A DNA stretch of 58,664 nucleotides from contig CP070632.1 in NCBI GenBank assembly GCA_020356065.1, positions 1 to 58,664 of the forward strand, given 5' to 3'. Below the pieces are notes generated by a model. The model saw nothing but the letters and a program-made list of their open reading frames with translations, made no database searches and had not been told where the DNA came from. The translations under genes and the position numbers were made by a program. Positions 18,692 to 49,087 of the stretch are shown one piece after another (the first letter of the stretch is position 1; each line of letters opens with the position of its first letter). This DNA comes from Nitrospiraceae bacterium (GTDB taxonomy: Bacteria; Nitrospirota; Thermodesulfovibrionia; UBA6902).

Positions 18692-20203
18692 TCATTGAAT
18701 TTGTTTATATCTCCCGTATATGAGGGCCATGTTCAGCAGTTTCTCACTCAACGTACCGGATAACTGTTCCTGTTTTACACGCCATTCCCAGTTACCGTTG
18801 GCACTGGCCGGGAGGTTCATCCTTTCTTTTTCACCAAGACCAAGGATGTCCTGCATCGGGATAATAGCCATGTCTGCAACTGACATCATGGCGAGTCTTA
18901 TCAGCTCCCAGTTTATATTATCAGCGGTGATGTCCCTTCCCAGGTAGAGCGAAATTCTTTTCCTGTCTTCTCCGGAAAGTTCTGATTTGTACCAGCCGTT
19001 TATTGTATTATTGTCATGCGTACCTGTGTATATCACACAGTTCCTGACATGATTATGCGGGGCATAAGGATTGGTGGGCAGGTCTTCTCCGAATGCGAAC
19101 AGCAGCACCTTCATTCCGGGAAATCCGAACTTGTTGATTATTGCCCGCACATCATCGGTAATGATACCGAGGTCTTCAGCGATTATTGCGGCGGCAGGTA
19201 CGTGTTCTAAAAGAGATCTGAAAAAATCTTCTGCCGGTGCAGGCATCCACTTACCATTAATGGCTGTCAGTTCTGATGAATGGACCTGCCAGTAACCTAC
19301 AAAGCCCCTGAAGTGGTCCAGTCTGAACATATGAAAGAGGTTGAGATTATGAGTTATTCTCTTTATCCACCATGTATAACCTGATTGTTTTATGACATCC
19401 CACCTGTAGACGGGATGTCCCCACAACTGACCGGTCGAACTGAAATAATCCGGTGGAACCCCTGCAACATTATCCGGCTTTCTGTTTTCATCGAGACTGA
19501 ATATTTCAGGATTTGCCCAAGTGTCGGCACTATCGTAATTAACATAAATGGGGATGTCCCCGATAATTTTAATATTCTTGCTGTCGCAATAATTCTTGAG
19601 AGAATACCATTGGTTAAAAAAAAGAAACTGCAGAAACATTTCTTTCAGTATACTGACTTTGAATTTATTGCGGGTCTCGATCAGTGCCTCATTATTTCTG
19701 TCTCTCAGATGTTCAGGCCAATCTCCCCATTCAATTTCCCCGTAACTTTCCTTGATAGACATAAAAAGGGTGTAGTCATCGAGCCAGTACAAGTTGGCTT
19801 TACAGAAATGCTGAAACTCCTGGTGCTCCGGCAGCTTATCTTTCATTCTCTCAAATGCCTTTTGCAGAAGTCCTTCCTTGTATACTGCAACTTTGTTATA
19901 ATCGACTCTGTCTCCTGAAAAATCATGAGGGTGATTGATATCGTTATTGTCCAGAAAACCTGTCTTTACAAGCCTCTCTGGACTGATAAGAAGATGGTTG
20001 CCGGCAAAGGCAGAAAAACTGCTGTACGGGGAGTTGCCATATTCTGCATTTGTCTGGTTTAACGGAAGTATCTGCCAGAGACTCTGACCTGCGTCAGACA
20101 GGAAATCAACGAATTTGTAGGCGTCAGGGCCCATGTCCCCGATTCCGTATTTTGACGGGAGCGATGTTATATGTATAAGTATTCCGCTGCCCCTTTTTCC
20201 CAC
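18692..20203 (-). CDS. malQ: 4-alpha-glucanotransferase (amylomaltase, GH77)
   Basis: Transfers alpha-1,4-glucan segments between chains. The N-terminus GSGILIHITSLPSKYGIGDMG is the family hallmark, and the catalytic trio lies in FRLDHFRGF (nucleophile), IIAEDLGII (acid/base) and THDNNT (stabiliser). 503 residues is the normal short form. It starts with GTG at 20203; AGGAGG overlaps the TAG stop of the upstream GH57 gene, so translation is coupled. Part of the alpha-glucan set. Confidence 0.96.
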   Translation of the reverse strand: MGKRGSGILIHITSLPSKYGIGDMGPDAYKFVDFLSDAGQSLWQILPLNQTNAEYGNSPYSSFSAFAGNHLLISPERLVKTGFLDNNDINHPHDFSGDRVDYNKVAVYKEGLLQKAFERMKDKLPEHQEFQHFCKANLYWLDDYTLFMSIKESYGEIEWGDWPEHLRDRNNEALIETRNKFKVSILKEMFLQFLFFNQWYSLKNYCDSKNIKIIGDIPIYVNYDSADTWANPEIFSLDENRKPDNVAGVPPDYFSSTGQLWGHPVYRWDVIKQSGYTWWIKRITHNLNLFHMFRLDHFRGFVGYWQVHSSELTAINGKWMPAPAEDFFRSLLEHVPAAAIIAEDLGIITDDVRAIINKFGFPGMKVLLFAFGEDLPTNPYAPHNHVRNCVIYTGTHDNNTINGWYKSELSGEDRKRISLYLGRDITADNINWELIRLAMMSVADMAIIPMQDILGLGEKERMNLPASANGNWEWRVKQEQLSGTLSEKLLNMALIYGRYKQIQ

Positions 20204-22854: not shown

Positions 22855-24564
22855 ATGCCGGCACAAAAGAAAACAGGGAGGCCTTCCCAGACCCGGTTAA
22901 GGGACATTGCGTGGGAAGTGGGTCAGAATTATCCTGTCACACACACCGCTGATTATATAGACCTGTTAATGATCACTCCTGAAACCGGACATGTGCACTG
23001 GAATGTCAGGGAAAGGACGGTTAACGCATTAGTCAGAAAACACATTATATCTGCAGGAAAAAATAACCCTGTCATACGCATTCATGATGTAACAGATATC
23101 ATCTTTGACGGTCATAATTCACACAGGCATTTTGAGATTAGGGTAAACACGTTCGAGGGCCAGTATACCTTTGCTCAGGACCCTGCAGCAAGACATTATA
23201 TAGCTGAGATCGGATTCAGCGGTGCAGGCTTATATCATGCCGTTGCGAGGTCTGAAGCGGTATTCTTTGACAGCGGCCGGCCATCGGGCAACTACAGCAC
23301 GTCAGGCCTGTTTGGCGGAGGAAAGATAAACAGGGTGTTCCCGGTTGAAAACATATTCAATGCACACGTGTACGAACGGATGAACAATGAACTGGCATCA
23401 ATAAAAAGAAAAGAAGCACTTTCCATAGCGGTAATTGACACTCCCGTGAATGGAGCACCGGATTCGGACAGACCTGTCAACGCCCATGTCAGGAGTATAT
23501 CAACTGGATTGAAGACATTTGGCTGCAGACCGGTATTATTTGTCCGTAAAGATAAAGATGAATTGCATGCGTCAGACACATCAATTTTAAAATCGGTCGG
23601 TATGATTTCAGAGACCACATATAATGATGTGGCCGCTGAACACAAGAAAAAAGCCTTCCATCTGGTCCATTGTCATGACTGGTATTCATCTCTGGCCGGT
23701 ATTGACATAAAGAAGAAATTGAAAGTGCCTTTTGTTGTTTCTCTGCATTCCACAGAGTATGAGAGAACACAAGCCGGCGAGATGTCGGGTCTTTCAAAGA
23801 AGATATGCACGATCGAAAAAAAAGCGGTCAAGCTTGCTGATCTTGTAATTGTTCCCCGGGCATCAACCCGGGATCAGGTGACAGATCATTATAACGCCCA
23901 GCCTGATAGGCTGGTAATCATTCCTGACACTGCCGGTGATAAACAAACCGGGCAATCAGGGCACTCTTCAGAGGCAAGGCAATGGTTTGGGATTCCGCAT
24001 GACAGCAAGGTTGTGCTCTTTTCAGGGGAGATGTCCCATGCAGCAGGTGCGGATCTGCTGCTGGAAGCACTGTCAACTGTCTGCCGGAATCACGGTTCAT
24101 CTCACTTTATTTTTGCTGGTGAGGGTCCTCTCAAGGGTGAACTTGAATCCCGGGCCCATCATATGGGAATCAGCCACAGATGCCGCTTCCCGGGACACCT
24201 GTCAAGAAAAGCATTTGAGTCTGTTCTTATGACCGCAGATTTTGTGGTCATCCCTGCACGGTCATGGCAGGACGAGGGGTTTGCAAAGATGGCCATAGAA
24301 TACGGCAAACCTGTTCTGGCGACACACCAGGCCGGAGTTCACTGTATTGAACACGGCAAGAATGGTCTTGTTACCTTTGACAACCCCGGGTCGGTTGTGT
24401 GGGGGGTACAGGAACTGCTCCATAATCCTTTAAGGGACAATATGGTCCGTGCTGCTGCAAAAAGAAGCGCAGGACAGTCTCCGTCTCTGGAAAGCATTGC
24501 TGCCCAGCACTATATGTTCTATGAGATCGTCCTGAAAAAGTACCAGGGAGGCAGACGTGCCTAA
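22855..24564 (+). CDS. DUF4912 domain fused to a GT4 glycosyltransferase
   Basis: Residues about 1-175 look like DUF4912 (DLLMITPETGHVHWNVRER, RHFEIRV, AEIGF), a domain often found next to glycogen genes. From about residue 195 a GT-B glycosyltransferase follows: FHLVHCHDWYS, VSLHSTE, a nucleotide-sugar half with VVLFSGEMSHAAGADLLLEAL, FAGEGPLKGEL and a C-terminal PARSWQDEGFAKMAIEYGKPVLAT with an E-x7-E-like arrangement of GT4. GGGAGGA precedes the ATG. The end overlaps the next GH57 gene by eight bases. It could make or extend a glucan; donor and acceptor are unknown. Confidence 0.82.
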   Translation: MPAQKKTGRPSQTRLRDIAWEVGQNYPVTHTADYIDLLMITPETGHVHWNVRERTVNALVRKHIISAGKNNPVIRIHDVTDIIFDGHNSHRHFEIRVNTFEGQYTFAQDPAARHYIAEIGFSGAGLYHAVARSEAVFFDSGRPSGNYSTSGLFGGGKINRVFPVENIFNAHVYERMNNELASIKRKEALSIAVIDTPVNGAPDSDRPVNAHVRSISTGLKTFGCRPVLFVRKDKDELHASDTSILKSVGMISETTYNDVAAEHKKKAFHLVHCHDWYSSLAGIDIKKKLKVPFVVSLHSTEYERTQAGEMSGLSKKICTIEKKAVKLADLVIVPRASTRDQVTDHYNAQPDRLVIIPDTAGDKQTGQSGHSSEARQWFGIPHDSKVVLFSGEMSHAAGADLLLEALSTVCRNHGSSHFIFAGEGPLKGELESRAHHMGISHRCRFPGHLSRKAFESVLMTADFVVIPARSWQDEGFAKMAIEYGKPVLATHQAGVHCIEHGKNGLVTFDNPGSVVWGVQELLHNPLRDNMVRAAAKRSAGQSPSLESIAAQHYMFYEIVLKKYQGGRRA

Positions 24565-26140
24565 GGGGTATCTGGCATTTGTTCTTCACGCGCATCTTCC
24601 ATATGTGCGCCACCCTGAGTATGACACGTTCCTGGAAGAACGGTGGTTCTTCGAGGCAATGACGGAGACGTATATCCCTCTTATTCAGTTCTTCGACAGG
24701 CTAATTTCAGACGGGGTAGGATTCAGGATCACTGTTTCTCTATCGCCTTCACTTCTCTCCATGATGGAAGACAGCCTGCTTCAGGAAAGATATGAGGCCC
24801 ATTTGACGGGGCTTATGGAACTCAGTAAAAAGGAGATGGACAGAACAAGCAGTGATCCGCACCTCAATTACCTTGCGGGGATGTATCATCGGCTCTTTAA
24901 AGAGGCGAGAGATGTGTATGTAAAAAAGTACAGGAGAAGCATTTCATCAGCCTTTCTTAATTTCCATAAGAAAGGTGTCGTTGAACTTATTACATCCTCA
25001 TCAACTCATGCTATCCTTCCTCTTATCTCTTCACAGCCAAAGGCGGTTGTGGCCCAGATCCGTAATGGCCTGGATTATTTTGAACATGTGTTCGGTTTCA
25101 GGCCCGGCGGTATGTGGCTGCCTGAATGCGCGTACAGCAGGGACCTTGATGACATACTCGGAAATGAAGGAATCGGTTTTTTCTTTATGGAAGCACATGG
25201 TATTGAGAACGCAAGCACTTCCCCTTTTTACGGTGTTCATGCCCCTGTTTTTACTCCATCAGGCATAGCGGCATTCGGGAGGGACAGGGCGAGTACAAAG
25301 CAGGTCTGGTCTGCAAGGGAAGGCTATCCGGGTGATCCTGATTACCGGGAGTTTTATCGCGATATCGGATACGACCTGGACCATGACTACATACTTCCCT
25401 ATATGGCCGGGGACGTACGGGTTGATACGGGCATCAAGTATCACAGGATAACAGGACGGTCAGGCTGGAAGGAATTTTATCATCCGGAAATAGCAAAAGA
25501 GCGGGCAGCGCAGCATGCCGGAGATTTTATTTATAAAAGGATATCACACATCGAGTACCTGGAATCTGCCATGGAGACCAAACCTGTTGTTGTCGCTCCT
25601 TTTGATGCTGAGCTGTTCGGCCACTGGTGGTTTGAAGGACCGCAGTGGCTTGATTATGTAATTCGCAAGACCGCGTACGACCAGGATGTTCTGGAGCTGA
25701 CTACCCCTTCTGAATACCTGAAACGCCATCCTGTTCACCAGACAGGAATACCCGCTTCATCCACATGGGGGCATAAAGGATATTTTGAGACATGGATAAA
25801 CAATAAGACCGAGTGGATGTATCCCCAGCTGCGGGAGTGTGCTCACAGGATGGAACGACTGGCAAAAAAATATGAAAAAGGAAGGGTTGGTGTGCTGACT
25901 AAACGAGCTCTTAACCAGTGCCTGAGAGAGCTATTTCTTGCACAGAGTTCAGACTGGACCTTTATCATCAACAGCGGCACGTCAGCAGAATATGCTGAAA
26001 GACGGGTAAAAGACCATGTCGCCAGGTTTCATTTTCTGGCGAACTCAATAGAAAAAAGGAAGATACAGGAAAAATATCTTTCAGCAATTGAATATATGGA
26101 CAATATCTTTCCAGATATAAATTATAAGCTGTTTGTATGA
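24557..26140 (+). CDS. GH57 1,4-alpha-glucan branching enzyme type, copy 1
   Basis: 527 residues, DUF1957-containing GH57. It opens GYLAFVLHAHLPYVRHPEYD and has the nucleophile in MWLPECAYS (Glu190) and the acid/base in APFDAELFGHWW (Asp350), spaced as in characterised archaeal GH57 branching enzymes. The C-terminal DUF1957 helices include LFLAQSSDWTFI. Start is GTG at 24557 with GGGAGG upstream, overlapping the GT4 stop. A clear paralogue lies at 45425-47038, also directly after a DUF4912 gene. Confidence 0.92.
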   Translation: MPKGYLAFVLHAHLPYVRHPEYDTFLEERWFFEAMTETYIPLIQFFDRLISDGVGFRITVSLSPSLLSMMEDSLLQERYEAHLTGLMELSKKEMDRTSSDPHLNYLAGMYHRLFKEARDVYVKKYRRSISSAFLNFHKKGVVELITSSSTHAILPLISSQPKAVVAQIRNGLDYFEHVFGFRPGGMWLPECAYSRDLDDILGNEGIGFFFMEAHGIENASTSPFYGVHAPVFTPSGIAAFGRDRASTKQVWSAREGYPGDPDYREFYRDIGYDLDHDYILPYMAGDVRVDTGIKYHRITGRSGWKEFYHPEIAKERAAQHAGDFIYKRISHIEYLESAMETKPVVVAPFDAELFGHWWFEGPQWLDYVIRKTAYDQDVLELTTPSEYLKRHPVHQTGIPASSTWGHKGYFETWINNKTEWMYPQLRECAHRMERLAKKYEKGRVGVLTKRALNQCLRELFLAQSSDWTFIINSGTSAEYAERRVKDHVARFHFLANSIEKRKIQEKYLSAIEYMDNIFPDINYKLFV

Positions 26141-33754: not shown

Positions 33755-35148
33755 TTGTTGATGACTTCCTTTTCTCTGTCGTATTTCTTTACCTTATGAC
33801 AGCCGGGAGTGCAACTGCCGCCTGTATCTGTCTTGATATAATTTAAGGGAAACTCCCAGTTGCCGAAAGGCACACGTTCTCTTATGTGTTTGGGAAAATT
33901 GCTAGCGTGAGTCTCATGACAGGCCCTGCAGGTCCTTCCCTTTTCAGGCCGGTTCACGTGCCTGAAGTGGAGGTTAATATAACCATTACGGAAATTAGTT
34001 AGCTCGAAGGTGGAAGGGTCCTGTACGATCGATTTCAGATGACATTTAAAACAGAGGGTATAGTTCCCCTCTTGATATGACATATAAAATGTGGAAGGGT
34101 AACTTTCTTTTAGCATCCTGAATTCATCGGAACCATGGGGATTGTGACATCCCGAACAGTCCTTGCGTTTAATCGGACCATGATGGGAACTGTTTTTTTC
34201 CAGCAGTTCCTTCATATTTGTCAGCATGATGCCCGCGTCTGTTTTCACTGATGTGTTATGGCAGCCGAGGCATAAGTCCAGGGGGGCCTTTGAAAGCCTG
34301 TTGGCAATATTTGAAGCATGGGCATCATGACAGTTAAGACACGATTTTCCAACCACAAGAGCCCCGTGTTTCGTGGCGGCCCGCTGCACGCTCTCCTTTT
34401 TTTTCTTATGACATCCGAAGCAGAGGTCAGGGACCTTGTTGCTAAGCATATATTCATTTGTGTTGGAATGGGGATTGTGACAGTTTACGCAGGTGTCAGC
34501 TGCGGGTTTATGAATGATCTTTGCTTCCTCCAGCTCTTTTTTTTTGTTATTATGGCAACTGAAACAGAGCTCAGGAGGTTCATCTCTAAGATTTTTTGCA
34601 TAATCAGACGAATGGGGATTGTGGCAGGCCAGACAGCCCCCGGCATCTGCAGGACCATGGGCAAACTCACCGGACATGATATCCTGGTCATGGCAATTAA
34701 AGCACAGATCACTGCCCAGGTCCATAAGCTGGTACTTGTTGGGAGAACCGTGAGGACTGTGGCAGGCAGTACACTCTCCAGATTCAGCAGGGCCATGCAT
34801 AAACGGCCTGTTAGCGAAACTGTCATGACAGGAATAACATAATTCCCCGATATCATCGATCTCTTGAAATTTAAATACTCCCGGATTTTGATTATGCCCG
34901 GATAGCTCTCCGTGACACATGTCACAATTACCTTCTTTGACAGGATCATGCAGAAATGCATTCTGCATAAGATCAACATGACAATCGGATGCAGTACATG
35001 ATGGCGATTCAACCGGCACTGGAATTTCCTGACAGAAGACAGTTTTGTTTAAGAAAGAGGAATGCAAAAGAATAATGGCTGTAAACAGAATAATAATATA
35101 TTTTACGCATTCATTGGTCATTCTCATTATAATAGAGACAACGTCCAC
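33751..35148 (-). CDS. Periplasmic multihaem c-type cytochrome (doubled CXXCH)
   Basis: 465 residues with an N-terminal signal anchor (about 15-35). I count thirteen CXXCH sites (CDMCH to CRACH), plus one CX4CH (CTASDCH) near the N-terminus and one CX3CH (CTPGCH) near the C-terminus, so up to fifteen haems. The paired pattern CXXCH...HNPHGS/HSPHGS is the doubled-CXXCH family, used in long-range electron transfer. The start may be a later Met (residue 8 or 10). The downstream redoxin-TPR gene overlaps by four bases. Confidence 0.9.
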   Translation of the reverse strand: MDVVSIIMRMTNECVKYIIILFTAIILLHSSFLNKTVFCQEIPVPVESPSCTASDCHVDLMQNAFLHDPVKEGNCDMCHGELSGHNQNPGVFKFQEIDDIGELCYSCHDSFANRPFMHGPAESGECTACHSPHGSPNKYQLMDLGSDLCFNCHDQDIMSGEFAHGPADAGGCLACHNPHSSDYAKNLRDEPPELCFSCHNNKKKELEEAKIIHKPAADTCVNCHNPHSNTNEYMLSNKVPDLCFGCHKKKKESVQRAATKHGALVVGKSCLNCHDAHASNIANRLSKAPLDLCLGCHNTSVKTDAGIMLTNMKELLEKNSSHHGPIKRKDCSGCHNPHGSDEFRMLKESYPSTFYMSYQEGNYTLCFKCHLKSIVQDPSTFELTNFRNGYINLHFRHVNRPEKGRTCRACHETHASNFPKHIRERVPFGNWEFPLNYIKTDTGGSCTPGCHKVKKYDREKEVINK

Positions 35149-35337
35149 ATAATCAGAAGTATATAATAATTTATTTATATTGCAAAAAGTAATTGCTGCA
35201 TACTGTTGGCTAAAATTAACGGCACAGACCCATGACGTTTACATACTTTTAAAATAAGTATAATATGAAGGAACGGACAGACTTTCTATCAGGAATTTAC
35301 GAATTTTACTGGAATATGGGAACCTGCTTTACATTTG

Positions 35338-38300
35338 ATGACAACATCTGAAGAGATCATTGTTAGTGATAAAGGTAAACTCCTCGTTGATCTGGAGGAA
35401 TCAGACGATCGCGTAACTGTTTACCTTCATATGAAAAACCAGGGGAACTGCCGTCTTCACTGGGGACTTAGCAGAACGATAAACAATGCGTGGAAGCTCC
35501 CTCCAAGTTCGTCATGGCCGGCAGGCAGTATTGTCTTTGCTGATTCAGCCATCCAGACCCCGTTTGAATTTCATGACAATGAAAGCCGTATCAGATTCAG
35601 CATTGAAAAATCTGCTGACTTCAGGATCATGAATTTTGCCTTTTACTATCCTGACACGGACAGATGGGACAATAATCGCGGAAAAAACTACCATTTAAAG
35701 CTTCCTGTTCCTGACGAACAGCGGGTTGACACGGTAAAAATTCTTGATGCATCGCTCTCAGGCGAGATCCTGTTCAAAGAGAGTTACGAAATTGACGATG
35801 AGGGTGTGTTGTCTGTTTCCGTTACAATAGAGAATGATTCATTCCAGGTGTTTTTTGTAACAGATATCCAGGGAAAACTGCTTTTGCATTGGGGCGGGGC
35901 CTTTAAAAACCCCTTTGAGTGGATACTGCCACCAGAAAAAGTCATCCCACGGGGTACAACCGTATATGACGATGGGGCTGTTCAGACAGAATTTGTGCTG
36001 CAGGATAATACAAACCGATTGAAACTGGAGTTTAATGAAAAAGACGCTCCTCTGGGAATTCATTTTGTTCTCACATTCTCTGATGAGTCAAGGTGGTTGA
36101 ATAACAGGGGAAAGAATATACATATCCCTGTTGCTGAACTTCTGAAGAAAAATGCCTTCCCGGGATCTTCGGACAATGCACATATTGCAAGGGACATAGT
36201 CCAGGCTGAAACAGGACGTAACTCCTGGACGCTCATGCACCGCTTTAACCTCTGCCACGACCTGCTGGACAGGACCGGAAAAGATGAGAAAGCACTTGCA
36301 CTGATCTTTGTGTGGATGCGGTATTCATTTGTTCGTCAGCTCGACTGGCAGCGAAATTACAACACAAAACCAAGGGAGCTGAGCCATGCCCAGGACCGGC
36401 TTACGCTGAAACTGGCAGAGATGTACATTCGTGATCCTGATAACAAAGAAGTGATAAGCCTTATTTTAAGTACTCTCGGCAGGGGCGGAGAGGGCCAGCG
36501 CATAAGAGACGAGATCCTCCAGATTATGCACCGTCATCATATTAAGGAGGTGGCAGGACACTTTATGGAGGAATGGCACCAGAAGCTTCATAACAACACC
36601 ACTCCCGATGATATCGTTATCTGCGAGGCCTATCTTGAATTCCTGAAAAGTGACGGCAATCTTGACCTGTTCTATTCAACTCTTGAGACCGGAGGCGTTA
36701 CAAAGGAGCGTTTGGAGAATTTTGAACGTCCGATAGTCACCCATCCTGATTTTATTCCACATCTGAAAGAGGCGCTCATCCATGACTTTGAAAATTATCT
36801 CAGGCTGCTGAGATCGGTCCATTCAGGGACTGATCTTGAAGGCGCTGCTGATGCAGCCGGATTTCTGATAAATCATGAGATGAAGGACCATTTGAATTAT
36901 ATCTTGCGGTCGAGACATGATGATTCGGCCTCTCTTCTCAATATAACCACGAGCATTACAAAATTAAGGCGACTGCTTAATGACAGATTGAGCAATGACA
37001 GGGACACGTACAGGGTAAGGGAGATGATCTATCTCGATCTTGCCCTTGAACAGTATCTGCGTGTTGTTGTGGAACGTAACATACATGTCCGAACTGACAT
37101 TGATGATCTTGTCCGGTTAATAGATCTTGTGCTTGAGAACCAAATATTTTCCTACACTAACCCTGAACTCTCAGCATGCTCCCGTCACTGGAAACGTCTC
37201 AAGGAATCAGATCATAAAAGTCAGGACTGGTCACTTCATGCCAAATCAGTACTTGACAGGCTCGGAAGGGGCATAGCTGATCTGAGTGACCGGTACTACG
37301 GACTGTTTCAGGACAATGCACGTTATCTTGGTGAGGCATTTTATGCGGAAAAATGGACAATCAATCTGTTCAGTGAAGAGATTGCTCGAGGCCAGCTGTC
37401 ATTTGTCCTTGCGATTCTGATCCATCATCTTGATCCCATACTACGTAACAGGGCAAACCTCGGAGACTGGCAGGTCATAAGCGGGAGACAGGCCAGCGGT
37501 GTGGTAGAGGTTGTACAGTCTCTGCGGTCTGTTCCGGACAGAACCTTTGAACATCCGACTATCATTGTTGCCGACAAGGTAAGGGGAGATGAAGAACCCC
37601 CTCCAGGACTTCGTGCTGTCATAACTCCTGATCTTGTTGATCTGGTTGCCCATGTTGCGATCAGGGCCAGGAACTCGGGGATTCTTTTTGCTACCTGTTT
37701 CGACAGGATGAAGTTTGAAAAACTTAAACAGATGAATGGACAGAGCATAAGTTTGCGATTAACCCCGTCAGGCGACATCGAAACATATGAGTCAGAAGGA
37801 GAGGGGGCCGGGCTGACTATTGTACCACGTGCTGAGATACGAAAGATAAAAAAGCCTTCAAAGAACGGATGTGCCGTGACGTCAGCAGAATTCAGTGATG
37901 ACATCGTAGGCGGTAAGTCACTTAATCTTGTCGGACTGAAAGGCAGACTTCCTGACTGGATCCATCTCCCTGCCTCTGCTGCTGTTCCGTTTGGAGTAGC
38001 AGAACAGGTTCTGGCCCTTGATGATAATAAGGAAATAGCCGGCACAATAAGACAGCTGGCCGCTCATATTGAGGATAAACCGGCTGAAATTCTTGCAGAG
38101 ATAAGAAAACAGGTGCTCCATCTTAAAGAGCCGGCTGGGCTTGTATCATCACTGAGAAATGTCATGGAAGCCGCAGGTCTTGGCTGGCATGAGGACTGGG
38201 AAGCCATTTGGATGTGCATCAAACGGGTCTGGGCGTCAAAGTGGAATGAAAGGGCTTTCATCAGCCGCAGGAAACAGGGTATTGCCGATGATGACCTGTA

Positions 38301-38808
38301 TATGGCCGTTCTTGTCCAGCAGGTGGTTAACGCCGAATATGCATTTGTTATACATACGTCTGATCCTGTTACCGGTAACAGCGAAGAGCTATATGCTGAA
38401 GTGGTCCCGGGACTTGGAGAGACACTTGTGGGTAATTATCCGGGCAGGGCTCTGGGCTTCCGTTCAAATAAAAAAGTGCCTGAACCGGGAATAATTTCTT
38501 ATCCAAGTAAAAGTATTGCATTGAGTGGTGAAGGCCTTATATTCCGTTCCGATTCAAACGGTGAAGACCTTTCGACGTATGCGGGAGCAGGGTTATATGA
38601 CAGTGTAATGGTTAATATGCCTCGTAAGAAGCATCTGAACTATATAGAAGAACCTCTGGTCTGGGACAAAAAGTTCAGACTTGAGATCCTGTCATCAATT
38701 ACAAATATAGGGACTACGGTAGAACAGCTCATGGGATCACCGCAGGACATAGAGGGTGTGTACAGTAAGAGCAAATATTATGTTGTACAGACAAGACCGC
38801 AGATATGA
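35338..38808 (+). CDS. Plant-type alpha-glucan, water dikinase (GWD)
   Basis: About 1156 residues. Transfers the beta-phosphate of ATP to glucosyl residues of starch or glycogen. Two N-terminal starch-binding (CBM45-like) repeats, each with LHWG and a tryptophan-proline (WKLPPSS; FEWILPP), occupy about 1-130 and 145-270. The phosphohistidine is in VAHVAIRARN (His773 counted from a TTG at 35335), and the C-terminal PEP/pyruvate-dikinase ATP domain ends RPQI with FRSDSNGEDLSTYAGAGLYDS. Full domain set, so likely active. The ATG at 35338 is used. Such genes are uncommon in bacteria. Confidence 0.92.
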   Translation: MTTSEEIIVSDKGKLLVDLEESDDRVTVYLHMKNQGNCRLHWGLSRTINNAWKLPPSSSWPAGSIVFADSAIQTPFEFHDNESRIRFSIEKSADFRIMNFAFYYPDTDRWDNNRGKNYHLKLPVPDEQRVDTVKILDASLSGEILFKESYEIDDEGVLSVSVTIENDSFQVFFVTDIQGKLLLHWGGAFKNPFEWILPPEKVIPRGTTVYDDGAVQTEFVLQDNTNRLKLEFNEKDAPLGIHFVLTFSDESRWLNNRGKNIHIPVAELLKKNAFPGSSDNAHIARDIVQAETGRNSWTLMHRFNLCHDLLDRTGKDEKALALIFVWMRYSFVRQLDWQRNYNTKPRELSHAQDRLTLKLAEMYIRDPDNKEVISLILSTLGRGGEGQRIRDEILQIMHRHHIKEVAGHFMEEWHQKLHNNTTPDDIVICEAYLEFLKSDGNLDLFYSTLETGGVTKERLENFERPIVTHPDFIPHLKEALIHDFENYLRLLRSVHSGTDLEGAADAAGFLINHEMKDHLNYILRSRHDDSASLLNITTSITKLRRLLNDRLSNDRDTYRVREMIYLDLALEQYLRVVVERNIHVRTDIDDLVRLIDLVLENQIFSYTNPELSACSRHWKRLKESDHKSQDWSLHAKSVLDRLGRGIADLSDRYYGLFQDNARYLGEAFYAEKWTINLFSEEIARGQLSFVLAILIHHLDPILRNRANLGDWQVISGRQASGVVEVVQSLRSVPDRTFEHPTIIVADKVRGDEEPPPGLRAVITPDLVDLVAHVAIRARNSGILFATCFDRMKFEKLKQMNGQSISLRLTPSGDIETYESEGEGAGLTIVPRAEIRKIKKPSKNGCAVTSAEFSDDIVGGKSLNLVGLKGRLPDWIHLPASAAVPFGVAEQVLALDDNKEIAGTIRQLAAHIEDKPAEILAEIRKQVLHLKEPAGLVSSLRNVMEAAGLGWHEDWEAIWMCIKRVWASKWNERAFISRRKQGIADDDLYMAVLVQQVVNAEYAFVIHTSDPVTGNSEELYAEVVPGLGETLVGNYPGRALGFRSNKKVPEPGIISYPSKSIALSGEGLIFRSDSNGEDLSTYAGAGLYDSVMVNMPRKKHLNYIEEPLVWDKKFRLEILSSITNIGTTVEQLMGSPQDIEGVYSKSKYYVVQTRPQI

Positions 38809-38913: not shown

Positions 38914-39720
38914 ATGAAAAAAATCAGGATAGGAAATCAGACAGCCTTTTCAGCCACAAACGTGATGGACCCTTTTGAGTATGCAGTGAAGAACGGGTTT
39001 GATGCGTTTGAGTGGTTTCCTGATAAGCATAACATCAATGAAGGGTGGGACGTCAGTGATATGGATAGTCAGACCCGTTTGTATATCAGAAACATTGCTG
39101 ACAATCATGATATAGCCCTTACCGTACACGCTTCATTACAAGCCGAGATGTGTGATCCGGAAAGAATAGATATAATGCTTAAGAATATCGAATTCGCTCA
39201 GGAGATAGGTGCAACGCTTATCAACACACATCTCTGCATAGAGAAGGGGCTGGAACATTATGTGGATGCCGTAAGCCCGGTTGTGAGAGAAACGGAAAAG
39301 GCGGGGCTCAGGATGGCTATTGAGAATACGGTATTTACCATTCCGAAAGATTTCAACAGGCTGTTTGAAATTATCTCCGAGCGGAAGATTGCATCAACAG
39401 AGAGATTTGGCATGTGTCTGGATATCGGTCATGCCAACCTGTCCAGTTTCAGCCGGAATGATTTTCTGAAATTCCTTGATCTGCTCAATCCCGATATTCC
39501 GATACTTCATATTCATATGCATGAAAACTTTGGTGACAGTGACAGCCATCTGCCTCTCTTTACTGGGCCTTCAGGTGAAAATGTTTCAGGTATTACAGGT
39601 TTTGTAAACCGAATGAAAAGGCGTGACTTCACGGGGTCGATTATATTTGAGCAGTGGCCTGATCCCCCGGTATTACTGAATGAAGCAAGAGACAGGCTGT
39701 ACAATATGTGGAATGAGTAA
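38914..39720 (+). CDS. Sugar phosphate isomerase/epimerase-like TIM-barrel protein
   Basis: 268 residues of the AP-endonuclease-2/xylose-isomerase-like barrel. Metal ligands are visible: AIENT (Glu), CLDIGHAN (Asp, His), HIHMHENFGDSDSH and the closing FEQW (Glu). Such folds isomerise or epimerise sugars, or cleave at abasic sites; nothing marks this one as a nuclease. It is 105 bases after the glucan dikinase gene and before a GH13 gene, so a role on a glucan-derived sugar is a fair guess. Confidence 0.78.
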   Translation: MKKIRIGNQTAFSATNVMDPFEYAVKNGFDAFEWFPDKHNINEGWDVSDMDSQTRLYIRNIADNHDIALTVHASLQAEMCDPERIDIMLKNIEFAQEIGATLINTHLCIEKGLEHYVDAVSPVVRETEKAGLRMAIENTVFTIPKDFNRLFEIISERKIASTERFGMCLDIGHANLSSFSRNDFLKFLDLLNPDIPILHIHMHENFGDSDSHLPLFTGPSGENVSGITGFVNRMKRRDFTGSIIFEQWPDPPVLLNEARDRLYNMWNE

Positions 39721-39880: not shown

Positions 39881-41185
39881 ATGAGACGACCGGAAAAGAT
39901 GATCATATATAATTTATTCCCACTTCTGGCTGGCAAAGCCGGCCAATGGGTAAGCCATTTGAAAAGGGCTGCTGATATGGGTTTTAACTGGGTTTTTGTT
40001 AACCCTGTACAGTACCCGGGTTTTTCAGGCAGTCTGTATTCGATAAAAGACTATTTTCAGATCAATCCATTATTTGTAGATGAGAACAGCCCGGTAAGTC
40101 CGGGTGATCAGATAAAAGAAGCAAACAGACGTGCAGAGGATCTGGGGTTAAAAATGATGATCGACCTTGTAATCAATCATTGCGCAGTCGACTCTGATCT
40201 GTTGATTAAACATCCCCAATGGTTTGAATGGAGAAAAAAAGAGAAGGTTGTCCATCCCTTTGCGCTTGAAAACGGCAAAAAGGTTGTCTGGGGAGACCTG
40301 GCAAAGTTTGATCACAGGAATTCAAAAGATAAGGAAGGGATGTTCCGGTTTTTCCTTGGTGTGGTGGAGTATCTGATTGATCTGGGATTTCACGGGTTTC
40401 GATGTGATGCCGCATACCAGCTCCCGAGAAGTCTCTGGGAGAGACTGATAAAGGAGACCAGGGTAAAATATCCGGATACAATTTTTTTTGCAGAAACACT
40501 GGGCTGCTCACCTGATCAGACAAGAAAAACTGCCGGAGCCGGTTTTGATTATATTTTTAACAGCTCCAAGTGGTGGGACTTTCGCGCATCATGGCTTATG
40601 GAGCAGTATGACCTTACGAGAGATATTGCGCCCTCAATCAGCTTTCCGGAAAGTCATGATACCGTGAGGCTTAATGAAGAGCTTAACGGCAATATAGCAG
40701 GGCTTAAGCAGCGGTATCTTTTTACAGCCCTGTTTTCATCCGGCATCATGATGCCTGTTGGTTTTGAATTCGGTTTCCGCAAGAGGATGCATGTCGTGAA
40801 ATCCAGACCCCATGACTGGGAAGAGACAGATATTGATATTACCTCATTTATCAGGCAGGTAAATATGCTGAAAGAAAAGTATACTGTGTTTCATGAAGAG
40901 TCGCCTGCCGAAACTTTGCAGTGCGACAATCCCAATGTCCTTCTTTTCTGGAAGGCATCAATCCATTCACAGGATGAAGCTCTTCTTATTCTGAATAAAG
41001 ATATCTATCACCACCAGAGTTTTCACGCAGACAGGCTGTGTGAACTTATGCAGTCTAAGGCCGGGTTAACTGATGTATCACCTGAGAATACCATGGATTT
41101 TATCCCGGAACCATTTTCCTATGATCTGAGGCCGGGGCAGGGGATTGTGCTGGTAACTGAAAGGAACGCTGTGTCTGAAGACTGA
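39881..41185 (+). CDS. GH13 alpha-glucan enzyme (amylase or maltosyltransferase-like)
   Basis: 434 residues, one alpha-amylase barrel and a short C-terminal sheet. The conserved regions are VINHC, GFRCDAAYQ (nucleophile Asp), FFAETLG (acid/base Glu) and FPESHDT (third Asp). The N-terminus YNLFPLLAGKAGQWVSHLKRAADMGFNWVF and HPQWFEWRKKE recall GlgE/maltosyltransferase and GH13 transglycosylases, but the family-specific residues cannot be checked by eye. No signal peptide, so intracellular. AGGAGA precedes the ATG. It belongs to the glycogen set. Confidence 0.85.
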   Translation: MRRPEKMIIYNLFPLLAGKAGQWVSHLKRAADMGFNWVFVNPVQYPGFSGSLYSIKDYFQINPLFVDENSPVSPGDQIKEANRRAEDLGLKMMIDLVINHCAVDSDLLIKHPQWFEWRKKEKVVHPFALENGKKVVWGDLAKFDHRNSKDKEGMFRFFLGVVEYLIDLGFHGFRCDAAYQLPRSLWERLIKETRVKYPDTIFFAETLGCSPDQTRKTAGAGFDYIFNSSKWWDFRASWLMEQYDLTRDIAPSISFPESHDTVRLNEELNGNIAGLKQRYLFTALFSSGIMMPVGFEFGFRKRMHVVKSRPHDWEETDIDITSFIRQVNMLKEKYTVFHEESPAETLQCDNPNVLLFWKASIHSQDEALLILNKDIYHHQSFHADRLCELMQSKAGLTDVSPENTMDFIPEPFSYDLRPGQGIVLVTERNAVSED

Positions 41186-42978: not shown

Positions 42979-44448
42979 CTATTCCCTGATGTAATCGTAG
43001 ATATTCAGGTAGTGCTGGCCGGGATGGTTCCATGAAAAATCATACCTCATGCCGTTTTCCATCAACTCCCTGAAATGATTGGGATGAGAGTACCACATGC
43101 CGATGGCGCGGTGCAAAGCAGACTCCAGACCTTCGTTGTTGAAATTATGAAAGACATATCCGTTTCTTTCATTATAAGGTCTGTGAGCATGATCTGCATC
43201 AAAGACAGTGTCCCGCAAGCCACCGGTATCTCTCACAATCGGAACTGTCCCGTATTTCATCGCGATAAGCTGTGTCAATCCACAGGGTTCAAACAGACTT
43301 GGGACGATAATCATATCAGAACCGGCATAAATGAGATGAGAGAGTTCCTCGTCATAGCCGATCTCCAGGTGACAATCGGGATTGTCGTTAAGGTGATGTT
43401 TCAGATTCCAGAAGTAGCTGCTTATCTCATGGTTAGGACTGGACCCTAAAAGCACGAACTGGCATCCATGATCAAGGGCGTAAAAAATGGCATGTTTGAT
43501 AAGGTGTACCCCTTTCTGGTGGTCCAGTCTGCCGATATACGCGACGATCGGTTTGTAATCATTGCGCAACAGAAGTCTGTGGCGCAGCACTTCCTTGTTT
43601 CCGTATTTCATGTTCAGATTATTTATCCCGTATGTATAAGGAATATGGCGGTCGGTTTCAGGATTCCATACTTCATAGTCGATGCCGTTCAGTATGCCTC
43701 CGAATTTTCCCTGATGGACATACAGGGTGTGACCAAGGCCGTACCCTTCATTAGTAAACTTGATCTCTCCAGCATACGTAGGAGAAACAGTGGTCACAAA
43801 ATTGGAATACACGATTCCGCCCTTCATCAGGTTTAACGCAAATGGATCAATGTTGTCCCTCATGCGGTCAAAGTGAAAATAATGTCCCGCATTGTTCAGG
43901 CCTGTTTCCCTCAGGATATATTCACCGACAAGACCCTGGTGCTTGAGGTTATGCAGTGTGTAGCATGCACGGGGGTGGCTCATTCCGATTTGTTTGTAAA
44001 TATCATACAAGAGAACAGGAACGATCCCTGTCTGCCAGTCATGGCAATGAATGATGTCCGGGTTTTTGCCTGACTTCAGCATGAATTCCATCGCTGCCCT
44101 GCAAAAAAAGACAAACCGCTCAGGATCGTCATGGTGTCCGTAAAAAACTCCCCGGTTGAAAAAGTTTTTACTGTGATGGGTGTCTATAAAATAACATTTG
44201 CGTCCGTGAACAAATCCGAAGTAAACCGTACAGTGTACCCATTGATCGTAATAAGGGACATGGAGATCACGATAGGATTCCTGGAGTCCATAAATCTGAT
44301 CATAACGCATGCAGTCATATTTGGGCAGAATGATCTCGACATCATTTCCCCTGATTTCCAGCTCACGGCTCAAGCCATAGACCACGTCGGCAAGACCGCC
44401 CACCTTGGCTACAGGCGCGCATTCTGAAGCTATCATTACAATATACAT
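42979..44448 (-). CDS. glgA: Glycogen synthase (ADP-glucose type, GT5)
   Basis: 489 residues. The KVGGLADVV motif binding ADP-glucose is at 15-23, with the GT-B core HCHDWQT, VSPTYAGEI, GILNGIDYEVWNP, GRLDHQKGVHL and the C-terminal SLFEPCGLTQLIAMKYGTVP carrying the catalytic Glu. It elongates alpha-1,4-glucan in the cytosol. GAGGA precedes the ATG. The gene is divergent from the DUF4912 gene; glgC, the usual source of ADP-glucose, is not in this window. Confidence 0.95.
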   Translation of the reverse strand: MYIVMIASECAPVAKVGGLADVVYGLSRELEIRGNDVEIILPKYDCMRYDQIYGLQESYRDLHVPYYDQWVHCTVYFGFVHGRKCYFIDTHHSKNFFNRGVFYGHHDDPERFVFFCRAAMEFMLKSGKNPDIIHCHDWQTGIVPVLLYDIYKQIGMSHPRACYTLHNLKHQGLVGEYILRETGLNNAGHYFHFDRMRDNIDPFALNLMKGGIVYSNFVTTVSPTYAGEIKFTNEGYGLGHTLYVHQGKFGGILNGIDYEVWNPETDRHIPYTYGINNLNMKYGNKEVLRHRLLLRNDYKPIVAYIGRLDHQKGVHLIKHAIFYALDHGCQFVLLGSSPNHEISSYFWNLKHHLNDNPDCHLEIGYDEELSHLIYAGSDMIIVPSLFEPCGLTQLIAMKYGTVPIVRDTGGLRDTVFDADHAHRPYNERNGYVFHNFNNEGLESALHRAIGMWYSHPNHFRELMENGMRYDFSWNHPGQHYLNIYDYIRE

Positions 44449-44763: not shown

Positions 44764-45399
44764 ATGGTCCTTAACAAAATGCGAAAACCGGAAAAAAAAA
44801 GGCGTGTCAGAAAGGTTGCTGACAGGCTCAGACTTCAGAAAAAAAGTGTGGATCTGAAGAAGATAAAAAAGCACCGGATTACAACGCAGGATCTCCCGTC
44901 GGCATATAACATGGATACCATTGTCATTATGCCGGTCAATGTGGAGAAGAATTTTATTTACTGGGAAGTAACCGGTAAGCTTCTTAATGGAAAAAGTTCG
45001 GGCAATGGGCCCTTAAAGCTGATGGTCAAGGTATATGAGACGGGGACAGATAAAGAGGTATATTCTTTTGCGGCGAATGAAAAAGTGGGCAAGCACTATA
45101 TGAACTGTCCTGTTCCTGTAACAAGTCTTTTCGCTGAGATCGGGACAGTGAGAGGAAAGAAGTTTACATCACTTATGAAATCAGATCCTGTATCAAGGAC
45201 AACTGTTTCTGCCAGGACGTATGACCATGAAGTATGGATGAGAAGGATAAAAGAATCAGGGGAAGCATTCCGTGTCTCTGATATTGAAGTAACAAGAATA
45301 CCCCGCTACAATCCATTTGTGCAGAAACACTTTCATGAACTGCAGGATGTATTCGAACCACCATATTCAAGCAGCACACTCCTGCGCCAGCGAAGCTAG
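44764..45399 (+). CDS. Stand-alone DUF4912 protein with a basic N-terminus
   Basis: 211 residues. The first 45 are very basic (KKRRVRKVADRLRLQKK...); the rest is DUF4912: IVIMPVNVEKNFIYWEVTG, LMVKVYETG, FAEIGT. The domain is often found beside glycogen genes and has no proven activity; an Ig-like or carbohydrate-binding role is suggested by the conserved YWE. It precedes a GH57 branching-type gene by 25 bases. The corresponding domain in the 22855 gene is fused to a glycosyltransferase. An alternative ATG lies at 44779. Confidence 0.82.
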   Translation: MVLNKMRKPEKKRRVRKVADRLRLQKKSVDLKKIKKHRITTQDLPSAYNMDTIVIMPVNVEKNFIYWEVTGKLLNGKSSGNGPLKLMVKVYETGTDKEVYSFAANEKVGKHYMNCPVPVTSLFAEIGTVRGKKFTSLMKSDPVSRTTVSARTYDHEVWMRRIKESGEAFRVSDIEVTRIPRYNPFVQKHFHELQDVFEPPYSSSTLLRQRS

Positions 45400-45424: not shown

Positions 45425-47038
45425 ATGTCTTTTATGAAACAGAATGTTGAAGGATTATGGCTTCCGCTGTTACATGCACACCTTCCTTTTGTAAAACATC
45501 CTGAATACGAATATTTCCTTGAGGAACAGTGGCTGTTTGAGGCAATTTCCGAATCATACATACCATTGCTTATGAACATGAAGAAACTGCTCGATGATTC
45601 TATCGATTTCCGATTGACAATTTCACTGAGCCCCCCTTTACTGGAGATGTTGTCCGATGAACATCTCATGGATAAATATATCAGCTATCTTGACCGGCTT
45701 ATCAATCTCTCGGCAAAGGAGATAAAGAGACTGAAAGGTGACGTTGCATTCAGGTCTCTTGCAGGTTTCTATCACATCAGATATGCAGAGATCAAGGCAT
45801 TTTATCTGGAATTTCTGAATCGCGATGTTGTATCTGCCTTCAAACATTTCAACAAGCTGGGTAAGATCGAAATTATCACAAGCTGTGCCACCCATGGATT
45901 GCTCCCACTGCTCAGCGTTAACCCCCTGTCGGTGGAGGCACAGATCCGCATTGCAGTTGATGATCATTATAAATTGTTCGGACAATCCACAAAAGGTATC
46001 TGGCTGCCGGAATGTGCTTATTACGAGGGTCTTGACAGGCTTCTCGCTAAATACGGGATAAGGTTTTTCTTCCTTGATTCCCACGGGTTGATGCATGGTT
46101 CCCCCTCTCCCAGGTACGGGGTGTATGCCCCGGTTTATACGGAAAGCGGTATTGCCGCATTTGGCAGGGATATGCAGTCATCACGTCAGGTCTGGAGTGC
46201 TGAGGAGGGTTATCCTGGTGACTGGTATTATCGTGACTTTTACCGGGATGCCGGGTTTGACCTGGATTATGACTATATTAAACCTTATATAAGCCCTGAT
46301 GGTAGCAGAGTATTTACCGGCATTAAATACCACAGGATAACCGGCAAGGGGGATCACAAGGAGCCGTATGATCCGGTAAAGGCGATGGACAGGGCAAAAA
46401 TGCATGCCCGGCATTTCTGCACTGAACGGAAAAAACAGTTGCAGGCTCTTGGTGTGCTTATGGACAGGCCGCCCGTTGTCGTGTCTCCCTATGATGCTGA
46501 ACTTTTCGGGCACTGGTGGTTTGAAGGCCCTGATTTTCTCTATTATGTTTTTAGGGAAATGAATGAACAGAAATCGATACATGCCTGTACCCCGTCCGAG
46601 TATCTGAAGAGTTGTCCCCAAAACCAGGTCATTTCTCCATGTCCCACGTCATGGGGTGACAAGGGGTATTATGATCCTTGGCTGAATAAAGAGAATGACT
46701 GGATGTACAGACACATCCACCATATGGCTAAAAAAATGGAGAATCTCGCTGGGAAATATGTTAATGAGACAGATGACATTAATGTGAGATGCCTGAAACA
46801 GCTGTCAAGGGAACTGCTCCTTGCCCAGAGCAGCGACTGGGCCTTCTTAATCACCACAGAAACGGCGAAGGAATATTCCATAAAGAGGTTGAAAGAGCAT
46901 ATCGGCAATTTTAATATGCTTCATGAGGCACTTGAGTCAGGAAAAGTGGATGAGGTGCAGCTTGAAATGATTGAGAAGAAAAATTCTATCTTCGGGGAGC
47001 TGGACTTCAGGGTATATTCCAATCTGGAAACTTCATAA
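45425..47038 (+). CDS. GH57 1,4-alpha-glucan branching enzyme type, copy 2
   Basis: 537 residues and a clear paralogue of the 24557 gene along its full length: LHAHLPFVKHPEYEYFLEEQW against LHAHLPYVRHPEYDTFLEERW. Nucleophile in GIWLPECAYY (Glu196), acid/base in SPYDAELFGHWW (Asp357). The catalytic spacing equals that of copy 1 within one residue. AAGGTGATCG lies before the ATG. It would add alpha-1,6 branches to glucan in the cytosol. Having GlgB as well makes three branching-type enzymes in the window. Confidence 0.92.
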   Translation: MSFMKQNVEGLWLPLLHAHLPFVKHPEYEYFLEEQWLFEAISESYIPLLMNMKKLLDDSIDFRLTISLSPPLLEMLSDEHLMDKYISYLDRLINLSAKEIKRLKGDVAFRSLAGFYHIRYAEIKAFYLEFLNRDVVSAFKHFNKLGKIEIITSCATHGLLPLLSVNPLSVEAQIRIAVDDHYKLFGQSTKGIWLPECAYYEGLDRLLAKYGIRFFFLDSHGLMHGSPSPRYGVYAPVYTESGIAAFGRDMQSSRQVWSAEEGYPGDWYYRDFYRDAGFDLDYDYIKPYISPDGSRVFTGIKYHRITGKGDHKEPYDPVKAMDRAKMHARHFCTERKKQLQALGVLMDRPPVVVSPYDAELFGHWWFEGPDFLYYVFREMNEQKSIHACTPSEYLKSCPQNQVISPCPTSWGDKGYYDPWLNKENDWMYRHIHHMAKKMENLAGKYVNETDDINVRCLKQLSRELLLAQSSDWAFLITTETAKEYSIKRLKEHIGNFNMLHEALESGKVDEVQLEMIEKKNSIFGELDFRVYSNLETS

Positions 47039-47044
47039 GTAACA

Positions 47045-49087
47045 TTACGTCTTTCCGATCTGGTCCCAGGCCAGAACTGTTTTATCGGTTTCTGATGCTC
47101 TTTTTGAAACGGTTTTTTTGACAGGCTTCTTTTTACGTGGTTTTTTTCTCACCGGCTTTAATATTACTGCTCCGAGAGGCGGTATGCTGAGATTTAAAGA
47201 AAATTCCTTTCCATCCCAGGCAACCGGTTCTGCCAGTACCTTTCCATAGTTTCCTATGTTACCTCCCCAATACCTATCTGAATCACTGTTAAGGATTTCT
47301 TCATAAAAGCCTCCCCCGGGGACAGCAACTCTGTAATCATGCCGCGGCACAGGTGTAAAGTTTATGATAAATATAATGCAATTAAATGAGTCTCTGGATT
47401 TTCTGATAAACGATATGATACTGTTTTCGTAATCACTGAAATTTATCCACTCAAAACCCGAATCTGAAAAATCATTCTCATATAATGCGGGCTCGCTTTT
47501 ATATAGGTGGTTCAGGTCTCTCAACCAGTTCTGTATACCTGTATGAGCAGGATAAGCAAGGAGATCCCATTCAAGAGCTTCATCATGGTTCCATTCCTTC
47601 CACTGTCCGATTTCTCCACCCATGAAGATCAATTTTTTTCCGGGGTGGCCGTACATGTAGGCAAAAAGAATCCTGAGATTCGCAAATTTCTGCCACTCGT
47701 CACCGGGCATCTTGCCAATAAGTGATTTCTTCCTGTGAACGACCTCATCGTGGGAAAGAGGAAGGACAAAATTTTCGGAAAAGGCATACCAGAGGCTGAA
47801 TGTAAGCTGGTCGTGATGATATTTCTTATGAACTGGTTTCATGGATGCGTATTTCAAGGTATCATGCATCCATCCCATGTTCCATTTCATGCCAAATCCA
47901 AGTCCCCCCAGGTGCGTCGGCCTTGATACCATGGGCCATGCCGTGGACTCCTCGGCTATGGTCTGCACATCAGGATAGCCTGAATAAACCGCTTCATTAA
48001 GGCGTTTGAGAAAACTTATGGCTTCAAGGTTTTCGTTTCCGCCATATTCATTGGGGATCCATTCCCCCTGTTTTCTCGCATAATCAAGATAGAGCATGGA
48101 AGCAACAGCATCGACCCTTAATCCATCGATATGGTATTTATCAAGCCAGTACAGTGCACTGCTGATGAGAAAGCTTTTTACTTCATTTCTGCCGTAGTTG
48201 AAAATATAACTCTTCCACTCGGGATGGTATCCTTTTTTCGGGTCTTGATGTTCGTACAGATAGGTTCCGTCAAAATATGACAGTCCATGCTGGTCAGAGG
48301 GAAAGTGAGAAGGGACCCAGTCAAGGATGACGCCTATATTTTTTTGATGCAGGCAATCAATAAGGTACATCAGGTCCTGTGGTGTCCCGTATCTGCTCGT
48401 GGGAGCAAAAAAACCGGTGCACTGATATCCCCAGGAACCATAGAAGGGGTGTTCCATTATGGGCATAAGCTCAAGATGGGTAAAACCCATTTTTTTTGCG
48501 TAATCTACTAGCTTATGAGCGATTTCTCTGTATGTTAAACGGCTTTTGGTATTGTCATGATGTCTTCGCCAGGAACCGACATGAACTTCATAAATCGATA
48601 TAGGGGAATCAAGCGCATTGATTTTCCTCCTCTTTGCCATCCAGTTACTGTCCTTCCACGTGTAATCCAGTTCCCAGACAACAGAGGCTGTTTTCGGTGC
48701 CCGTTCCCAGTAATAGGCAAAGGGATCACCCTTTTCCACACTGTATTTATTGAATTTTGAAACGATATGATATTTATAGATATCACCCTTTTGTATTCCG
48801 GGTATAAAGCATTCCCATATACCTGAATCATCTTCTCTCAGTGAAAGTCTGTGAGTATCCCTGCTCCATCCATTGAAGTCTCCCTGTACAGCGACATTTT
48901 TTGCGTTCGGGGCCCATACAGAAAAATAATAGCCCTTTTTCCCGTTGACAACAGCAGGGTGAGAGCCGAGTTTATCGTATAGTCTGAAGTGGTTGCCTTC
49001 TTTAAAAAGATATATGTCATGTTCCGAAAAGAGGCTTATGTCTGACTGTACAGTATTCTTCATAATTAATGAAAAGCCTGATAGCAT
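47045..49087 (-). CDS. glgB: 1,4-alpha-glucan branching enzyme (GH13)
   Basis: About 680 residues. N-terminal CBM48 (YYFSVWAPNAKNVAVQGDFNGW), the GH13 barrel with the nucleophile in GLRVDAVASM (Asp326) and acid/base in TIAEEST (Glu379), LSHDEVVH, and a C-terminal sheet. Unusual is the last 45 residues: a Lys/Arg-rich tail (KPVRKKPRKKKPVKKTVSKRA) not typical of GlgB. The start may be the ATG at 49063 (MKNTVQSD). The gene is convergent with the GH57 gene, six bases apart. Confidence 0.95.
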   Translation of the reverse strand: MLSGFSLIMKNTVQSDISLFSEHDIYLFKEGNHFRLYDKLGSHPAVVNGKKGYYFSVWAPNAKNVAVQGDFNGWSRDTHRLSLREDDSGIWECFIPGIQKGDIYKYHIVSKFNKYSVEKGDPFAYYWERAPKTASVVWELDYTWKDSNWMAKRRKINALDSPISIYEVHVGSWRRHHDNTKSRLTYREIAHKLVDYAKKMGFTHLELMPIMEHPFYGSWGYQCTGFFAPTSRYGTPQDLMYLIDCLHQKNIGVILDWVPSHFPSDQHGLSYFDGTYLYEHQDPKKGYHPEWKSYIFNYGRNEVKSFLISSALYWLDKYHIDGLRVDAVASMLYLDYARKQGEWIPNEYGGNENLEAISFLKRLNEAVYSGYPDVQTIAEESTAWPMVSRPTHLGGLGFGMKWNMGWMHDTLKYASMKPVHKKYHHDQLTFSLWYAFSENFVLPLSHDEVVHRKKSLIGKMPGDEWQKFANLRILFAYMYGHPGKKLIFMGGEIGQWKEWNHDEALEWDLLAYPAHTGIQNWLRDLNHLYKSEPALYENDFSDSGFEWINFSDYENSIISFIRKSRDSFNCIIFIINFTPVPRHDYRVAVPGGGFYEEILNSDSDRYWGGNIGNYGKVLAEPVAWDGKEFSLNLSIPPLGAVILKPVRKKPRKKKPVKKTVSKRASETDKTVLAWDQIGKT

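Follow-up and report, generated by a model that had tools for sequence, protein, structure and literature searches.

Reversible phosphorylation of glucan is regarded as a feature of plants, algae and animals. Why, then, does a Nitrospiraceae bacterium carry what reads as a glucan, water dikinase (GWD) of plant type, and which enzyme would remove the phosphate that it adds? PMC13011383 treats phosphate in bacterial glycogen as unknown or perhaps absent. Here, we report a computational analysis of the GWD gene, its neighbors and their bacterial relatives, centered on contig CP070632.1, positions 1 to 58,664 (the window; the whole 58,664-nucleotide stretch that was analyzed).

Results and Discussion

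The GWD gene (GWD1; 35335..38808, + strand; assigned by Pfam, PDB match and motif alignment) is an open reading frame without an internal stop, starting either with TTG at 35335 (1157 aa) or with ATG at 35338 (1156 aa). Its N terminus holds two PF23166 domains (CBM45-like Ig domains; Pfam E=3e-48; the better-scoring one at aa 148-266), with the HWG motifs of these CBM45-type modules at aa 42 and 185. These are followed by the central domain (aa ~295-708; EEWHQKLHNNT block at aa 412), a phosphohistidine domain (PF22973; aa 712-819; Pfam E=1e-33) with the catalytic His773 in HVxxRARN, and an ATP-grasp domain (PF01326; Pfam E=1e-24) in which VWASKWNE (aa 965) precedes RSDSNGED (aa ~1071). In an alignment of 73 bacterial GWDs, His773 was kept in all 73, and R777, R779, EEWHQKLHNN, VWASKW and RSDxxxED were invariant or nearly so. 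The redox Cys pair beside the catalytic His serves the regulation of plant GWD, not catalysis. Where plants have CFATC, the window protein has LFATC, and the first position was never Cys among the 73 bacterial GWDs, so a thioredoxin switch of the plant kind is not expected.

The top PDB sequence match was the central domain of a plant GWD (9ha9; E=2e-86; 39% identity over 438 columns). A PEP synthase, or another dikinase of the PPDK type, misread as GWD would have the PPDK_N ATP domain in common with the window protein, and PEP synthases in the PDB do match it, over the ATP domain only (E 1e-13 or worse). NCBIfam PEP synthase models likewise gave partial ATP-domain matches far under their cut-offs (best 72 bits; cut-offs about 600-1000), the protein has CBM45-like modules together with a central and a phosphohistidine domain of GWD type, and the host has separate PPDK_N genes elsewhere. 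We reject a PEP synthase identity on domain content and give it virtually no weight. The 9ha9 match, the domains and a quick tree (below) all place the protein with plant GWD, and its assignment as an intact, full-length GWD is strong at the sequence level. The earlier note's description of a complete enzyme, with both starch-binding modules, phosphohistidine block and ATP domain intact, stands. Like plant GWD1 (R1/SEX1 of potato and Arabidopsis), the bacterial protein has the CBM45-like tandem, central domain, phosphohistidine motif and ATP domain; unlike it, the protein is shorter (1157 aa), lacks the thioredoxin-type Cys pair, belongs to a cell without a plastid and has an adjoining TIM-barrel gene.

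The genes around the window GWD are ordinary glycogen genes; a crystalline glucan, which the earlier note brings up for plants, is a hypothetical substrate here. Downstream lie TIM1 (38914..39720, +; a 268-aa AP_endonuc_2 TIM barrel, by Pfam, alignment, model and PDB profile search) and GH13s (39881..41185, +; a small GH13 of alpha-amylase/glucanotransferase type with an intact catalytic triad). Profile matches identified GlgA (ADP-glucose glycogen synthase; 42979..44448, -), a DUF4912 protein (44764..45399, +; by neighborhood clustering, often in the same island as GWD), a GH57 1,4-alpha-glucan branching enzyme (45425..47038, +), GlgB (GH13 branching enzyme; 47045..49087, -) and a second GH57 branching enzyme (24557..26140, +). 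A probable 4-alpha-glucanotransferase (MalQ/DPE type; 18692..20203, -), placed by homology clustering only and named from sequence reading, has relatives that recur close to GWD loci. GH13s is part of a conserved cluster in about 32 loci, and its triad was intact in 28 of 28. A promoter and terminator scan returned figures near chance.

No phosphoglucan phosphatase had been noticed nearby in the earlier reading of this DNA. That looks wrong, since the very next gene, TIM1, is a candidate by its metal site, its linkage and its co-occurrence with GWD. When loci were collected by GWD patterns alone, the downstream neighbor of GWD was TIM1 in 49 of the 69 bacterial loci with room (at least 900 bases downstream), and many of the open reading frames touch or overlap. 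As the N-terminal part of a fusion with a second dikinase (about 1150-1230 aa; shorter at contig ends), it was found in 28 loci. Of the remaining 20 assemblies, 11 carry TIM1 elsewhere; in 9 of the 69, mostly from one Nitrospirota group with GWD-GH13s only, it was undetected. TIM1 is not universal among GWD-positive assemblies.

Co-occurrence was counted genome-wide, independently of linkage, in 296 Nitrospirota and 345 Desulfobacterota genomes, which are phylogenetically non-independent. Nitrospirota genomes were scored as GWD positive if their match to the GWD-type phosphohistidine domain passed the cut-off; G063, which would have been the 24th, matched weakly and fell below it. TIM1 was present in 21 of these 23 GWD-positive genomes and in none of the 273 GWD-negative ones (Fisher p about 3e-30, uncorrected for shared ancestry). 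Desulfobacterota gave 3/3 versus 0/342, with GWD and TIM1 in the same three genomes.

What might TIM1 do? The AP_endonuc_2 superfamily also includes sugar isomerases and epimerases, and TIM1 and its relative TIM2 (below) could be sugar or sugar-phosphate isomerases or epimerases (xylose-isomerase-like) that act on the monosaccharides released by glucan breakdown, with the dikinase working as in plants. The AlphaFold model of TIM1 (pLDDT 93.9) gave Foldseek matches to MJ1311, UlaE, AP endonucleases and sugar epimerases (allulose/tagatose 3-epimerases and YcjR among the hits), and because it matches phosphoesterases and epimerases alike, the fold alone is indecisive. The best PDB match by profile (E=3e-15) as well as by fold, the uncharacterized archaeal TIM barrel MJ1311 (3wqo), has a PDB title that goes no further than "D-tagatose 3-epimerase-like"; AP endonucleases also appear in the profile search.

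The metal site favors a different chemistry. Nine TIM1 ligands (H72, H106, E137, D170, H173, H201, D210, H212 and E246) were invariant in 51 of 51 members, and by order and motif context in alignments they match the nine-ligand, three-metal site of endonuclease IV, whose E. coli equivalents we take to be H69, H109, E145, D179, H182, H216, D229, H231 and E261. The alignment to 5zhz reaches the D-x-H pair; E246 lies beyond it and was paired with E261 by position, close to the C terminus. To our knowledge, epimerases use only the E/D/H/E subset of these ligands, while TIM1 keeps the full set, including H72, H106 and D210-x-H212. Sequence profiles also put phosphoesterases first: all 51 members matched the CbiR phosphodiesterase model and about 20-30 matched endonuclease IV models, but only 1-2 matched epimerase or isomerase models (2 of 51 weakly, to L-ribulose-5-P 3-epimerase or IolE). 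The fusion of TIM1 to a dikinase, in turn, fits a step at the level of the polymer better than one on a monosaccharide. We consider the isomerase alternative unlikely, and TIM1 is predicted to be a metal-dependent phosphoesterase.

TIM1 shares its fold and metal-ligand set with endonuclease IV (Nfo) and CbiR but falls far under the cut-offs of both families. Among NCBIfam models, the window TIM1 matched the CbiR equivalog best, at 35 bits (cut-off 105), and the Nfo family model scored 22.8 bits (cut-off 129.65); a true Nfo is encoded separately in the host genome. That new phosphoesterase roles can arise in the AP_endonuc_2 superfamily is shown by CbiR, an enzyme that EDTA inhibits (PMC7733943).

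CbiR and endonuclease IV, the closest of the characterized relatives, cleave phosphodiesters and not mainly monoesters, which would suit an alternative in which TIM1 and TIM2 cleave a phosphodiester, glucan or nucleotide linked, that is formed by the dikinases or regulates them. Endonuclease IV, however, also removes 3'-phosphate monoesters, and its type of site therefore permits monoesterase chemistry. The known product of GWD and PWD, moreover, is a monoester (PMC13011383; PMC12892837). Cleavage of a diester seems to us rather improbable, and TIM1 is a strong candidate phosphoglucan phosphatase.

A second dikinase with a TIM partner was found in the same genome, at L091:9138-11786, followed with a 4-base overlap by TIM2 (L091:11783-12805). 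The pair corresponds to C1 2111637-2115304, 2 Mb from the window GWD, and the host's set is thereby split, with GWD-TIM1-GH13s in the window and the PWD-like dikinase and TIM2 apart. The second dikinase has a PF22973 phosphohistidine domain and then a PF01326 ATP domain, with the ATP-domain motifs in their usual order (RSSANCED at 674, then VWSSLW at 709). Its motifs presumably resemble those of plant PWD. As in plant PWD, the phosphohistidine and ATP domains stand in canonical order and the enzyme accompanies a GWD; unlike plant PWD, it is often fused to TIM1 and has no CBM20, which was found neither in L091:9138-11786 nor in the L012 fusion, and its C3 specificity is putative.

Of the 24 fetched loci with room behind the PWD-like dikinase, 23 have TIM2 there, and three loci fuse TIM2 to GH13s. 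Behind the TIM1-dikinase fusions, the usual order is TIM2 and then a small GH13. Among Nitrospirota, TIM2 occurs in 7 genomes, all with the second dikinase, of the 9 that have that dikinase. Profile similarity marks TIM2 as a divergent TIM1 relative, and its alignment shows a conserved set of H, E and D residues. The host TIM2 had no Pfam match (PF01261 was weak in 4 of 23 members, best E=0.0095, under the cut-off), no PDB sequence match and no good PDB structural match, its AlphaFold model (pLDDT 93.8) giving weak fold matches only. TIM2 may represent a new, essentially unannotated family.

Glucan phosphatases of the plant and animal kind were also sought. No DSPc match at E<=0.01, as would mark a SEX4-, LSF2- or laforin-type phosphatase, was found in the host genome; DSPc-domain genes do occur in some other GWD-positive genomes. 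The strongest DSPc matches were in G154 and G174, the pair of Nitrospirota genomes in which the PWD-like dikinase occurs without TIM2. We did not accept DSPc as a replacement for TIM2 there: the G174 gene is membrane-protein-like and lies in an unrelated neighborhood.

Given the plant-like pairing of dikinases with partner genes, and a host without a DSPc phosphatase by this search, TIM1 and TIM2 most likely dephosphorylate glucan. We propose, with a probability of about 0.6, that the bacterium has a system for alpha-glucan phosphorylation and dephosphorylation, made of two dikinases and two putative metallo-phosphoesterases. Its parts would be GWD, TIM1, the PWD-like dikinase, TIM2 and the small GH13 glucanase/transferase. 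GWD would autophosphorylate, taking the beta-phosphate of ATP onto His773, and pass it to glucosyl units of the alpha-glucan in the cell, at C6 if it acts as a GWD should, yielding AMP and Pi. GWD, and then the PWD-like enzyme, would in this way phosphorylate the glucan chains. The phosphate may loosen ordered chains and keep branching and degradative enzymes away. TIM1 and TIM2 would strip the two kinds of phosphate, possibly dividing C6 and C3 between them, after which the GH13 and other enzymes could degrade the chain. For this proposal we draw on the domain architecture and catalytic residues of GWD, the linkage, fusions and co-occurrence of the genes, and the conserved metal site, all read from sequence.

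The plant set of GWD and PWD with SEX4 and LSF2 is paralleled here by two dikinases with TIM partners beside glycogen genes. TIM1 and TIM2 would stand in for SEX4 and LSF2 through a fold that is metal dependent and unrelated to theirs. With SEX4, LSF2 and laforin, which are atypical dual-specificity phosphatases, they would share the removal of glucan phosphate; they differ in being TIM barrels with a metal site. This would be known dikinase chemistry in a bacterial setting that is apparently undescribed, with phosphatase candidates that are new. Bacterial GWD is not mentioned in the available portions of PMC13011383 and PMC12892837, and searches of the open-licence literature turned up no report of a bacterial GWD cluster or of its TIM link; the subscription literature may contain one. 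Such a system predicts a new class of glucan phosphatase, and with two dikinases and two phosphatase candidates in one conserved bacterial operon, the question of glycogen phosphate can be put directly to the test. According to PMC12892837, no full high-resolution structure of GWD or PWD has been reported, and the bacterial enzymes are small, expressible models of both.

The system is also relevant to how starch metabolism arose. When GTDB genomes were scanned by pattern, at least 92 GWD-encoding stretches were returned from other bacterial genomes (80 kept), in Nitrospirota, Planctomycetota (anammox), Desulfobacterota, Verrucomicrobiota, gammaproteobacteria, Myxococcota and others. The description of the window gene as a plant-type GWD in a bacterium is right as to the enzyme; the gene is not an isolated one of plant type, having these relatives in many phyla. 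A quick tree built on the central domain (bacterial GWDs, plant GWD and second dikinases) separates the bacterial GWDs from the second dikinase with full support and puts plant GWD with the former, among which it forms a long, deep and unresolved branch. The window GWD paired with an anammox planctomycete protein (support 87). It was 39% identical to plant GWD in the central domain, against 57% to that protein and 78% to its Nitrospirota kin.

The high similarity of the central domain to plant GWD is what an ordinary GWD, recently acquired from a plant or alga and with no dedicated bacterial system around it, would display. The bacterial relatives (>90), the identities just given, the conserved multi-gene cluster and the length and depth of the plant branch all argue against such an origin. 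A recent plant-to-bacterium transfer is not indicated by these data; we reject it on breadth, identities and tree, and regard it as very improbable. Rather more tentatively, and at somewhat under even odds, several phyla may have a dedicated five-part system, each dikinase with its own metal-dependent TIM-barrel phosphatase from a new family, plus the GH13, and plant starch phosphorylation may be the eukaryotic form of this prokaryotic process, whether older or shared, in which dual-specificity enzymes took the place of the TIM-barrel phosphatases.

One genome (G146) gave a second phosphohistidine match. We rejected it as a PWD-like dikinase, as it proved to be another GWD1 with GH13s adjoining.

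Within bacteria, the block GWD-TIM1-GH13s-GlgA-DUF4912-GH57 is syntenic between the window and an anammox contig (L011), with identities of 79% for GlgA, 71% for GH13s and 57% for GWD. This synteny, together with the identities, points to movement of the glycogen/GWD island between phyla.

The other half of the glucan, water dikinase (GWD) cluster is detached and lies elsewhere in the same genome (L091:9138-12805; C1 2111637-2115304), where the gene of an 882-aa second dikinase, phosphoglucan, water dikinase (PWD)-like and without a CBM, overlaps that of a 340-aa TIM barrel for which no Pfam match was found. An anammox contig (L011:2677-14480) carries two copies of TIM1, the TIM barrel encoded next downstream of the window GWD, one joined to the second dikinase and the other stand-alone after GWD, a layout that is intermediate between the split and fused clusters. 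The closest GWD relative (L053:10001-13424) is broken into two ORFs, reflecting either an assembly error or a pseudogene.

Nitrospirota genome G174, which has the second dikinase and lacks TIM2 (the divergent TIM1 relative usually following it), encodes an apparently membrane-anchored dual-specificity phosphatase (L110:6466-7188); genome G154 showed the same match pattern. The phosphatase may substitute for the missing TIM2, or the two may coincide by chance.

Just upstream of the window GWD, and divergent to it, is a multihaem cytochrome-type gene (multi-CxxCH; 33751-35148, minus strand), accompanied by a TPR/thioredoxin-fold protein (32738-33754), both read by eye. Between two glycogen blocks sits a small transposase-like ORF of the REP-associated type (27202-27723; identified by eye), possibly a trace of island movement. 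DUF4912 occurs in two forms in the window, fused to a glycosyltransferase with a weak starch-synthase match (22855-24564) and stand-alone within the glycogen island (44764-45399), and recurs near GWD loci, including L037 and L011. Several GWD loci also have a GH57-DUF3536 protein nearby (window copy, 20212-22629).
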